Shown here one piece after another: positions 21,136-57,500 of a stretch of DNA of 64,000 bases. Position 1 is the first letter of the stretch, and each line of letters begins with the position of its first letter. Below the pieces are notes generated by a model, which was given only the letters and a program-made list of their open reading frames with translations, did no database searches and had not been told where the DNA came from. The translations under genes were made by a program, and so were the position numbers. The stretch is from positions 3,782,001-3,846,000 of the forward strand of contig NZ_CP019239.1 of the NCBI RefSeq assembly GCF_001955715.1. The letters run 5' to 3'. The stretch is from Rhodoferax saidenbachensis (GTDB lineage: Bacteria > Pseudomonadota > Gammaproteobacteria > Burkholderiales > Burkholderiaceae_C).

Positions 21136-22617
21136 ATGAATGCACCTCTTAACGCTGCACTGCTTGCCCCTTTTGGCGAAGACCACGGCCCGCACCTGAG
21201 CGGTGTGTACGCGCCGGTAAATGCCGAACAAACCCTGCACAACCTGCCGCTGCTGCGCGGCCAGATTCCGACGGATCTGAATGGCGTGTACTTGCGCGCC
21301 GGGCCCAATGCACGCTTTGAGCCGCATGGCCGTTACCACCCGTTTGATGGCGACGGCATGGTGCACGCCGCACAGTTTTCCAAAGGCCAGCTCACCTACC
21401 GCAACCGCTGGATTCACACCGACGGCTGGCAGGAAGAAGACCTGGCGCAGCAGGCCACCTTCTACGGCATCCGCGAGACCCTCAAGGGCCGCACCGACAA
21501 ACGGCTCAAGGACACGGCCAACACCGACGTCGTGGGCCACGCGGGGAAGGCGCTGGCGCTCTGGTACATGGCGGGTGATGCGTACGAGATCGACCCCGTC
21601 ACGCTGCAAACACTGGGCAAGGCGCGCGGCATCACCGCCACGGGCAAAGGCATCTCGGCCCATGCCAAGGTGGACGAAACGACTGAAGAGCTGATGTTCT
21701 TTGACTACAGCACCGAGGCGCCCTACATGCACTACGGCGTGCTGAGCGCCGACGGTGCACTCCAACACCATGTGCCGATTGACCTGCCCGGCCCGCGCTT
21801 GCCGCACGACATGGCCATCACGCAGCACTATTCCATCCTGCACGACCTGCCACTGTTCCACGATGCCGATGCGCTGGCGCTGGGCCGCCACAAGATCCGC
21901 TTTCACCCCGAGATGCACACCCGCTTTGGTGTGATCCCGCGCCTGGGTGCGAGTGACAGCATCCGCTGGTTCAGCTTCACGCCCTGTTACCTGTACCACA
22001 CGGTCAATGCCTGGGAAGACGGCGACTGGCTGGTGCTGGTGGGCTGCCGCTATATGCCGCGCACACGCGCCGACGGCAGTATCGACCCCGAAGGCACTGC
22101 GCGTGATGTGGCCGAGCTGGTGATGCGTGCGCGCCTGTGGTGCTGGCGCATGAACCTGGCCACCGGCGAGACCGAAGAACATGTGCTCAACCCCGATCTC
22201 AACGTCGAGTTCCCCAGTTGCAATGCGCGTCTGGCCGGGCGCAAGACGCGTTACGGCTACCTGGTGGACCACTCTTCGGTGACCACGCTGCAATGGGCCG
22301 GGCTGCGCAAGATGGATCTGGAAACCGGTGCCAGCCTCAGCGCCTGGACCGATGACCCGGTGCACAGTTGGTACACCGAACCCTGGTTTGCCGAGGCTGA
22401 CAACGCCACCGCCGAAGACCACGGCTATCTGATCGCTTTCCAGTGGAACGAAGCACTGCAGCGCCAGACGCTGGACATCTTTGACGCGCGCGACCTCAGC
22501 ACCGGGCCGGTCGCGCAGGTGGAACTACCGGCGCGCGTTCCGGTGGGCTTTCATGGTTGCTGGATCGCTGAGCGCCGGCTTTTGTACAGCGCTGAAAAAA
22601 ACCTCCGTTCGGGCTGA
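21136..22617 (+). CDS. Carotenoid oxygenase (RPE65/lignostilbene dioxygenase) family protein
   Basis: 493 residues. The N-terminus PTDLNGVYLRAGPNARFEP and HPFDGDGMVHAAQF are hallmarks of carotenoid cleavage oxygenases. Four iron-binding histidines are expected in the seven-bladed propeller; candidates are in GKGISAHAKVDE, PHDMAITQHY, LVDHSSVTTL-like and GFHGCWIAE contexts. Members split alkene double bonds in carotenoids or stilbenes. The coding sequence ends abruptly: the last codons and the TGA stop at 22615 lie inside the palindromic repeat beginning at 22605. The natural C-terminus after FHGCWIAERRLLY may therefore be altered by a few residues. Confidence 0.88.
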   Translation: MNAPLNAALLAPFGEDHGPHLSGVYAPVNAEQTLHNLPLLRGQIPTDLNGVYLRAGPNARFEPHGRYHPFDGDGMVHAAQFSKGQLTYRNRWIHTDGWQEEDLAQQATFYGIRETLKGRTDKRLKDTANTDVVGHAGKALALWYMAGDAYEIDPVTLQTLGKARGITATGKGISAHAKVDETTEELMFFDYSTEAPYMHYGVLSADGALQHHVPIDLPGPRLPHDMAITQHYSILHDLPLFHDADALALGRHKIRFHPEMHTRFGVIPRLGASDSIRWFSFTPCYLYHTVNAWEDGDWLVLVGCRYMPRTRADGSIDPEGTARDVAELVMRARLWCWRMNLATGETEEHVLNPDLNVEFPSCNARLAGRKTRYGYLVDHSSVTTLQWAGLRKMDLETGASLSAWTDDPVHSWYTEPWFAEADNATAEDHGYLIAFQWNEALQRQTLDIFDARDLSTGPVAQVELPARVPVGFHGCWIAERRLLYSAEKNLRSG

Positions 22618-22686
22618 GCCTGTCGAAGCCCTCAACACATCCGGGATTTGCAAGGGCGGCGTTTCGACCGACTCAGTCCGAACGGA
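22605..22686. repeat. Palindromic repeat (family A) supplying a stop codon
   Basis: CCGTTCGGGCTGAGCCTGTC begins in the last codons of the carotenoid oxygenase gene; the facing, partly diverged arm ends at GTCCGAACGGA near 22686. The TGA within GGGCTGAGCC is the stop of that gene. The loop is longer than in other copies. Confidence 0.75.
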
Positions 22687-43641: not shown

Positions 43642-43708
43642 CCGTTCGCCCTGAGCTTGTCGAAGGGTCGAAGGGCTTGCAAGGCTTCGACAGGCTCAGC
43701 CCGAACGG
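43642..43708. repeat. REP-like palindromic repeat (family A)
   Basis: CCGTTCGCCCTGAGCTTGTC with GAAGG, facing GGCTTCGACAGGCTCAG with CCGAACGG. It lies between the hydrolase gene and alkB, 75 bases before the alkB start. Confidence 0.85.
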
Positions 43709-54598: not shown

Positions 54599-57500
54599 CT
54601 ACATGTTCCGGCGGTATTGCCCACCCACCTCAAACAGCGCATTGGTGATCTGGCCCAGGGAGCAGACGCGCACGGCATCCATCAGCACGTTGAAGACGTT
54701 CTGGTTGTCGATGACGGCCTGCTGCAGTTGCTTGAGCATGGTGGGTGCTTCTGCCGCATGGCGGGTGTGGAAATCGGCCAGGCGTTTGAGCTGGTTTTGC
54801 TTTTCCTCGTCCGTGCTGCGGGCCAGCTCCAGCTTTTCCATCACCTGATCACCATGCGGGTTGCGGAAGGTGTTGACGCCGATGATGGGCAGCTCGCCCG
54901 TGTGTTTGAGCATCTCGTAGTGCATGGATTCGTCCTGGATCTTGCCGCGCTGGTAGCCTGTTTCCATGGCACCCAGTACACCGCCACGCTCGGCAATGCT
55001 TTCAAACTCTTTGAGCACGGCTTCTTCCACCAGCTCGGTCAGCTCTTCGATGATGAAGGCGCCTTGTGACGGGTTCTCGTTCTTGGCCAGGCCCCACTCG
55101 CGGTTGATGATGAGCTGGATGGCCATGGCGCGGCGCACGCTGTCTTCGGTGGGCGTGGTGATGGCCTCGTCAAACGCATTGGTGTGCAGGCTGTTGCAGT
55201 TGTCGTAAATGGCGATCAGGGCCTGCAGTGTGGTGCGGATGTCGTTGAACTGAATTTCCTGCGCGTGCAGGCTGCGGCCACTGGTCTGAATGTGGTACTT
55301 GAGCTTCTGGCTGCGCTCATTCGCGCCGTATTTCTCTTTCATCGCAACCGCCCAGATGCGGCGCGCCACGCGACCCATCACGGTGTACTCGGGGTCCATG
55401 CCGTTGCTGAAGAAGAAGCTCAGGTTGGGTGCGAAGTCGTCAATGTGCATGCCGCGCGCGAGGTACGCTTCGACAAACGTAAAGCCGTTGCTAAGCGTGA
55501 ACGCGAGCTGGCTGATCGGGTTGGCACCCGCCTCGGCAATGTGGTACCCGGAGATGGACACACTGTAGAAGTTGCGCACGTCATGGTGCACAAAGTACTC
55601 GGCAATGTCGCCCATGACCTTCAGCGAAAACTCGGTGCTGAAGATGCAGGTGTTCTGGCCCTGGTCTTCTTTCAGGATGTCGGCTTGCACGGTGCCGCGC
55701 ACATTGGCCAGCACCCATTCCTTGATTTTGGCAATTTCGGTATCGGTGGGCTCGCGGCCGTTGTCGGCCTGGAACTTCTCGATGTTCTGGTCGATGGCCG
55801 TGTTCATGAACATGGCCAGGATCGAAGGCGCGGGGCCGTTGATGGTCATGGACACGCTGGTAGACGGGCTGCACAAATCGAACCCGCCGTACAGCACCTT
55901 CATGTCGTCCAGCGTGGCAATGCTCACGCCGCTGTTGCCCACCTTGCCGTAGATGTCGGGGCGCGGGTCGGGGTCGTTGCCGTACAGCGTGACCGAGTCA
56001 AATGCGGTGGACAGGCGCTTGGCCGCCATGCCGCTGCTGAGCAGCTTGAAACGCGTGTTGGTGCGGAAGGCATCACCCTCGCCCGCGAACATGCGGGTCG
56101 GGTCTTCACCCTCGCGCTTGAAGGCAAAGGTGCCGGCCGTGTAGGGATAGCTGCCGGGCACGTTGTCCAGCATCAGCCACTGCAACACCTCGCCCTGGTC
56201 TTCATACTGCGGCAAGGCGACTTTGCGAATCACGGTACCACTCAAACTCTTGGTGGTCAGTGCGGTGCGGATTTCCTTGTCGCGGATCTTCACGACGTAC
56301 TCGTCGCCTGCGTAGGCCTTTTGCATCTCAGGCCACTGGGCGAGCAGCTTGCGTTCGGCCGCGCCCATGCGGTCTTCGCGCTGCTGGGCCAGATCGGTCA
56401 CCGCGGCCACCGCGCCGCGTTTGTCGGGGTTGGCTTCCTGCAGCATGCGGCCGCTGGCGCGCAGTTGCTGGATCTCACGCGCCAGCCGGGCTTGTTCGCG
56501 TGCGCGCTTTTTGTAGCCGCGCACCGTGTCGCTGATCTCGGCCAGATAGCGCGTGCGCGCAGCGGGCACCACCGGGGTTTGGTTGCTGCTGTGGCGCACC
56601 GTCACCTTGGGCAAGATGCCATCCTTGAGCGGCACGCCTAAGGCCTGCAAGCGCGGCAACAGCGCCTGGTAAAGCGCCGTCACACCGTCGTCGTTGAAAC
56701 GCGCGGCCATGGTGCCGAAGACGGGCATCTGGTCGGCAGGTGTGGTCCAGGCTTCCTTGTTGCGCTGCACCTGCTTGGACACATCGCGCAGCGCATCGCT
56801 GGCGCCCTTGCGATCAAACTTGTTGATGGCGACAAACTCGGCAAAGTCCAGCATGTCGATTTTTTCCAGCTGGCTGGCGGCGCCAAACTCGGGCGTCATC
56901 ACATACATGGGCACATCCACCAGCGGTGCAATGGCCGCATCACCCTGGCCAATGCCGGAGGTCTCCACCACCACCAGATCGAACCCCGCCACCTTGCAGG
57001 CAGCAATCACATCGGGCAGAGCGGCGCTGATCTCGGAGCCAAAATCACGCGTGGCCAGGCTACGCATAAAGACACGTTGGCCTGAATCTTTCTGCGTTCG
57101 GGCTGGGCCTGTCGAAGCCTTGGCGAGCCCTTCGACAGGCTCAGCCCGAACGGTGGTATTCCAGGGCGAGATGGCATTCATGCGGATGCGGTCGCCCAGC
57201 AACGCACCACCGCTCTTGCGGCGGCTTGGGTCTATGGAGATGACAGCGACGCGCAAGGCATCGTTCTGGTCCAGGCGCAGGCGGCGAATCAGCTCATCGG
57301 TCAGGCTGGACTTGCCCGCACCGCCGGTGCCGGTGATACCCACGACCGCTATCTTTTTAGTAGCTGCTTGCGCACGTATCTCCTGGGCTAGCGCCTGATT
57401 TACCTTGGAAGCCTCGATAGCGGTGAGCAGCTGGGAGAGTGCGCGCCAACTGGCCTCGGTATGGCCCTGGATGGCGGTAAGGTCGGTAGGCGCCAGCGCG

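Follow-up and report, generated by a model that had tools for sequence, protein, structure and literature searches.

In-frame insertions of palindromic repeats are best known from Rickettsia and from scattered cases of repetitive extragenic palindromes (REPs). The Rickettsia palindromic elements (RPEs), as described in the accessible part of one account, are dispersed palindromes of about 150 bp that lie in frame in many unrelated housekeeping genes (PMC10969869). The intragenic GTAG and CGTC REPs are small palindromes within open reading frames (ORFs), more than half of them arranged as dimers or groups that encode 20-30 amino acids; uvrA is among their hosts, and in recB of Xanthomonas different REPs lie near the same site in two species (PMC3733652, Di Nocera et al. 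2013). Their stems, in the accessible part of that source, measure 5-13 bp (GTAG) and 8-9 bp (CGTC). Here we describe a palindromic repeat of Rhodoferax saidenbachensis, which we call family A, one copy of which is translated in frame within icmF, the gene of a fused isobutyryl-CoA mutase/GTPase. The gene lies in a stretch of 64,000 nucleotides (contig NZ_CP019239.1, positions 3,782,001 to 3,846,000), referred to below as the window; features are listed in Table 1.

A dispersed palindrome in frame within icmF

The host gene is a single open frame of 1121 codons, and its product scores 1922.4 bits over residues 18-1121 against the NCBIfam model NF045497 (cut-off 1500), whose curated cut-off defines proteins with fused Cbl-binding, MeaB-like GTPase and mutase domains. 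Its nearest named homologues are from Rhodoferax. The nearest orthologues have 1097 amino acids and the loop SPWQQGS or SPWQQGN, of 7 residues, at the place where the R. saidenbachensis protein has 31. The original prediction, made from the letters of this DNA, described a near-perfect palindrome that is translated into 19 residues with the reading frame kept and that lengthens the protein by about its own size, and all of this held: 19 of the 24 extra residues are the palindrome, the other 5 belonging to the flanks (NTT...QKDSGQ versus QQGS). The prediction was also right to place the insert in the GTPase domain, but not to place it directly beside the motif DRIRMNAI, since further residues and QKDSGQ intervene.

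On the mRNA strand the 59 nt fold at -43.4 kcal/mol, against a mean of -21.2 in 200 dinucleotide shuffles (z = -6.7), none of which folds as stably; the helices, of 11, 9 and 4 pairs, are stacked. Five of the six reading frames of the palindrome are open. Matches to the arm pattern with up to 3 mismatches number 9 in the window, against 0.04 expected, and matches with up to 2 mismatches number 220 (107 + 113) in the genome of 4.26 Mb (a single contig), against 1 + 0 for the reversed pattern. Of the full copies found elsewhere in the genome, the closest shows 93% identity to that in icmF. Copy number, fold and this second copy thus identify the icmF palindrome as a dispersed repeat and refute an origin by chance or ordinary coding drift, the probability of which is practically nil; nothing about this copy favours such an origin, and at most some of the loops of relatives classed below as 'other' may be ordinary low-complexity loops. 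The earlier proposal that a spreading repeat was accepted, frame intact, in a loop of the G domain in a large metabolic enzyme is supported. Other family A copies in the window, at 333-390, 22606-22685 and 43643-43708, were not scored as coding-like. Rfam gave no match in the window at gathering cut-offs.

The insertion had been taken for an unusual single case, and in this the original prediction was mistaken: family A is read in frame in many genes, and the IcmF loop has been refilled repeatedly in relatives. We surveyed 78 stretches around listed family A arms, which cover part of the 220 matches and so give a lower bound on the number of sites. The stretches hold 99 elements, 49 with an open frame on both sides and 16 that look coding on both sides; one of the latter was dropped as a false arm match (L223:2949), leaving at least 15 coding-like in-frame sites in 14 genes. 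The hosts are uvrA, xdhB, mfd, purL, hrpA, tex, lpdA, aceF, a biotin carboxylase gene with a PCC_BT domain, nirB, trmJ, pbpC (L228; two copies at two sites), a DTW-domain gene and icmF. In both aceF and lpdA (L213) the element adjoins lipoyl domains, and a second aceF copy, outside the site count, is visible by eye in the protein.

All 15 coding-like sites are read in one phase, which gives V(R/L)xEPVE, and the alternative open phase, FGLSLSK, is used by none of the 13 two-armed copies in the usual order. The phase used encodes no aromatic residues. Hydropathy was rejected as the cause of the choice, the phase used not being the most hydrophilic one (Kyte-Doolittle). A spurious-looking ORF of 234 amino acids runs antisense over icmF (plus strand, 56694-57398) and reads the palindrome as a 19-residue peptide too, so that such a peptide arises independently of orientation. 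By virtue of its symmetry, the palindrome in its harmless phase would yield nearly the same peptide (VRxEPVEG...STxSxRT) either way round.

Repeats at the same loops in relatives

The IcmF loop is short in most relatives. Among the 120 best homologues 118 loops were readable, 87 of them with 7 residues, 10 with 16-17 and 21 with 30-45. Two samples were not chosen for the insert: long loops occur at 5 of 47 readable loci of the genus (A 1, C-plus 2, C-minus 2) and at 8 of 79 readable loci of named genomes (A 2, C-plus 1, C-minus 1, other 4), C-plus and C-minus being one repeat, family C, read from opposite strands. A larger set, insert-enriched by design and drawn from overlapping sources, combined 337 proteins (333 readable), obtained after two region-limited searches aimed at insert-bearing loops, with 126 loci, and comprises 459 rows. 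Their loops are short in 193 rows, C-minus in 116, A in 52, other in 39, C-plus in 35 and middle-length in 24; 203 of the 242 loops of at least 19 residues are A or C. Five rows with unmatched loop patterns (P0050, P0296, P0302, P0336 and L093) were left out. The proteins come from Rhodoferax, Polaromonas (including JS666), Hydrogenophaga, Serpentinimonas, Paucibacter, Rhizobacter, Variovorax, Ramlibacter and other genera.

Family A DNA was read at the IcmF loop in three cases, R. saidenbachensis and the loci L064 and L069. We found no orthologue that matches this peptide and length yet lacks the repeat DNA; the loops most like that of R. saidenbachensis, equal in length and with a family A peptide (P0106, P0057, P0117 and P0081), are known as protein sequence only. 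Of the ten genomes searched, nine have 8 to 49 copies of family C DNA and one gave none, and within icmF the orientation of this repeat in G031 is opposite to that in G006 and G024. Tandem family C copies fill the loop in P0227 and P0228, and shortened A-like remnants are seen in P0150, P0154, P0167 and P0173. The inserts of L061, L124 and P0201 look like further repeats; that of P0201 (VIPAKAGIH..SRLRGND), known here as a peptide only, is presumably the translation of another common palindrome.

Families A and C were found at one and the same loop in all three host genes examined in relatives, out of the 14 hosts: icmF, purL and uvrA. The purL loop of R. saidenbachensis is 19 codons longer than in four relatives, which is exactly the palindrome, and a fifth relative carries family C there. 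Thirty purL sequences were fetched as best matches to the insert-bearing query, and their 26 readable loops comprise 2 of family A, 8 C-minus, 3 truncated or of another kind and 13 short ones. Similarly, 29 of 30 uvrA sequences were readable, R. saidenbachensis having family A and G022 having C-minus at the same loop. At this site the long loop of PurL from G086 (L270) consists of a further repeat-like peptide, LPPLLHKEG..GGRGLSP.

To count changes at the IcmF loop, we used a FastTree phylogeny of 418 of the 459 rows, built with the loop cut out and without identical rows and rows of fewer than 880 residues. On the full tree A needs at least 35 changes, C-plus 21 and C-minus 51; with branches of support below 99 collapsed and polytomies resolved most favourably, at least 16, 8 and 23 remain. 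These are changes rather than gains, as losses and exchange between lineages are included, and FastTree supports may run too high. A single ancestral insertion is very unlikely, given how varied the families, orientations and flanks are. On the same loop-free tree R. saidenbachensis falls in a clade of 63 rows (support 97) with 59 short loops, 3 of middle length and family A in its own row only, by a first, looser classification that was tightened for all other class counts.

Proposed origin and possible consequences of the inserted loop

We consider it likely that within genes selfish palindromes persist only where their phase is harmless and the loop tolerant, and that such loops serve them as recurrent landing sites. 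On this view a copy of family A, which is dispersed, palindromic and presumably non-autonomous, entered the IcmF G domain, probably by transposition, at what would be a surface loop joining the helix that follows switch I to the beta strand after it. A genic copy would survive only when the frame stays open and the peptide is harmless. Palindromic symmetry together with peptide tolerance would then let tolerant loops receive, time and again, whatever repeat family a lineage has active, and the IcmF loop would have been occupied by family A, by family C either way round and probably by others. The insert begins 11 residues past R261 of switch I, in a segment predicted to be disordered; the AlphaFold model used covers residues 1-460 and replaced a weak full-length model (predicted local distance difference test 57.5). 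The family A peptide is most likely a disordered, nearly neutral surface loop.

Several observations weigh against this reading. Comparison with relatives, whose flanks have diverged, shows no target-site duplication of the kind expected of a miniature inverted-repeat transposable element (MITE) at either the IcmF or the PurL site, and no transposase could be tied to family A in a search limited to the Y1_Tnp family. Coding copies of family A and the remaining copies are alike in length modulo 3 (Fisher p 0.16, not significant); a 56-nt length class does differ significantly, a class picked after the lengths had been seen. Filled IcmF loops are a minority in the less biased samples (5 of 47 in the genus), 39 of the 242 long loops match neither A nor C, and most classes were assigned by peptide pattern, not DNA. 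The recurrence in uvrA rests on the single relative G022. Parsimony does not separate gain from loss, and recombination of alleles can mimic repeated gain. Finally, the IcmF site is not a clean pair of empty and filled alleles, the difference being 24 residues, not 19, and the DNA past the insert is somewhat less like the nearest relative (0.82) than the gene overall (0.90), which also fits import of an allele. The original prediction had suggested looking for an empty site in sister strains. Short loops do exist in related genomes (37 of 103 genus genomes match the insert region at E<=1e-20, the insert being spanned only by the genome's own match), but their flanks differ and no clean pair emerged.

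The last points raise the possibility, real though on the whole doubtful, that the R. saidenbachensis lineage acquired its icmF segment, loop and flanks together, through homologous recombination with a Rhodoferax that bears family A, the insertion itself having happened earlier and elsewhere. NTT and QKDSGQ are closer to the flanks of A-type and middle-length alleles in more distant rows than to those of close relatives, and over residues 294-320, where identity to the nearest relative is 0.82, L064, which bears family A, matches best (0.87). The patch is short, however, and the difference small: the nearest relative is back at 0.92-0.95 from residue 320, and none of the 103 genus genomes yielded a donor with this DNA. 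The case for local import from a donor like L064 is suggestive only.

That A and C share one loop in each of the three genes could also reflect the choice of DNA target by the mobilising enzyme instead of tolerance of the protein. This we regard as quite unlikely, since one DNA target would have to serve unrelated families, and family C whichever way it lies, and the loops have no obvious common sequence (PW..SGQ in IcmF, LVDEGAES in PurL, NVYV..WR in UvrA); the phase bias, moreover, points to selection on the protein. Tolerance of the protein is the more probable cause of the recurrence.

Could the inserted loop tune the enzyme, for example by weakening or strengthening the contact between G proteins, in which switch III and switch I of partner protomers come together, and thereby alter cofactor loading or repair? 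The insert lies 11 residues past the counterpart of MeaB R108, a residue of the inter-protomer salt bridge according to the accessible literature (D245, D258 and R261 of IcmF match MeaB D92, D105 and R108 by eye, the MeaB residues being taken from that literature). In switch III, Q365 and K368 are the counterparts of Q341 and K344 of the Cupriavidus metallidurans protein. We hold such tuning to be decidedly unlikely: the loop holds peptides of many sequences and lengths, including shortened remnants, the same repeats sit in unrelated enzymes, and the P-loop and switch residues are conserved in the R. saidenbachensis IcmF. An effect of the insert on the coupling of GTPase and mutase, which its position in the sequence beside switch I would allow, is possible; the many peptides and lengths accepted there argue for tolerance.

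A broader proposal, which we offer as speculative and rather unlikely, is that palindromes of the Comamonadaceae have been selected for harmless translation, yielding almost identical soluble peptides whichever way they lie, and that tolerant loops of core enzymes are shared refuges in which unrelated repeat families replace one another, feeding new surface loops near functional sites such as switch I of IcmF. In any case, these genes form a natural replicated experiment on which loops tolerate insertion, which phase of a selfish repeat survives and whether loops made by repeats gain function. IcmF is an attractive case, its family having both solved structures and assays of GTPase activity; a short-loop orthologue, that of TS-BS-61-7, is available and about 95% identical to the R. 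saidenbachensis protein.

A second repeat in icmF and comparison with described systems

A copy of another repeat, family B, directly precedes the P-loop in icmF. Its core at 57348-57373 shows no mismatch to the search pattern, which was written to admit the icmF copy; with that pattern the genome has 232 matches and the reversed control none. The icmF copy is identical to nine other window copies at 26-36 of 49 nt, and eight of them agree among themselves at 31-38. It encodes a linker of 16 residues before the P-loop, and because most relatives have equal length there, a simple insertion does not account for it; either overwriting or a chance resemblance of codons would. The copy has one CTA and two ATA codons, against none among 87 Leu codons (CTA) and one among 65 Ile codons (ATA) in the rest of icmF, which favours overwriting. 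B-like DNA is also seen in icmF of related Rhodoferax. Eight plus-strand copies of the 49-nt repeat lie in the window between 4967 and 60068. Among the matches listed for the genome, the plus strand carries nearly all of those in the first 3 Mb or so, and beyond that point many lie on the minus strand, a pattern that suggests an orientation bias with replication.

Table 1. Features of icmF and its repeats (positions in the window)
Feature	Position	Strand	Basis or remark
icmF, fused isobutyryl-CoA mutase/GTPase, 1121 aa	54599..57964	minus	ORF, NF045497, best PDB match 4xc6
Family B copy, residues ~190-206, just N-terminal of P-loop	57347..57395	minus	extent 49 nt by eye
P-loop, residues 209-220	57305..57340	minus	ORF reading
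Switch I, by homology to MeaB 92-108	57182..57232	minus	matched by eye via 92/105/108 spacing
Flank NTT, residues 269-271	57152..57160	minus	
Family A palindromic repeat, 59 nt	57095..57153	minus	near-perfect palindrome inside icmF
19 codons of family A repeat, residues 272-290	57095..57151	minus	counted from ORF start
Palindrome arm 1, 1 mismatch to arm pattern	57097..57117	plus	arm pattern search
Palindrome arm 2, 0 mismatches	57130..57150	minus	arm pattern search
Flank QKDSGQ, residues 291-296, outside repeat, lacking in short-loop relatives	57077..57094	minus	
Switch III, residues 357-368, by homology	56861..56896	minus	numbering offset 24 after loop

The R. saidenbachensis protein shares family and fold with the IcmF of Cupriavidus metallidurans (4xc6, 8ssl), whose loop is about 28 residues shorter. 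Our searches of an open-licence library found no account of the arm DNA, of the encoded peptides or of the insertion in isobutyryl-CoA mutase of Polaromonas, and the accessible parts of PMC5217627 and PMC2755013 do not describe these insertions. Like REPIN/RAYT systems, family A is high in copy number, palindromic and presumably non-autonomous. The genome has one gene for a Y1-type, RAYT-like transposase (PF01797; L056, G000 C1:3412960-3413280), and no family A arm with up to 4 substitutions was found in its 3321-base locus, so that the arrangement of a RAYT flanked by its repeat is not seen here. Family A is unlike the GTAG and CGTC REPs: neither tag occurs in the 59-nt element on either strand, and its hairpin of 11, 9 and 4 pairs is longer than the 5-13 bp stems given in the accessible part of the source.

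Family A resembles the RPEs in being palindromic, dispersed and in frame in unrelated ORFs (15 sites in 14 genes), a likeness by description, not by sequence, with lengths of about 57-59 nt in a free-living Rhodoferax against the 150 bp or so of the accessible account of Rickettsia. Recurrence near one site has a precedent in the intragenic REPs; here it involves unrelated families and both orientations, in each of the three genes checked. What is added to the known systems, relative to the RPEs in particular, is that single loops in several core enzymes of one bacterial family have repeatedly captured palindromes that are unrelated to each other and lie in either orientation.
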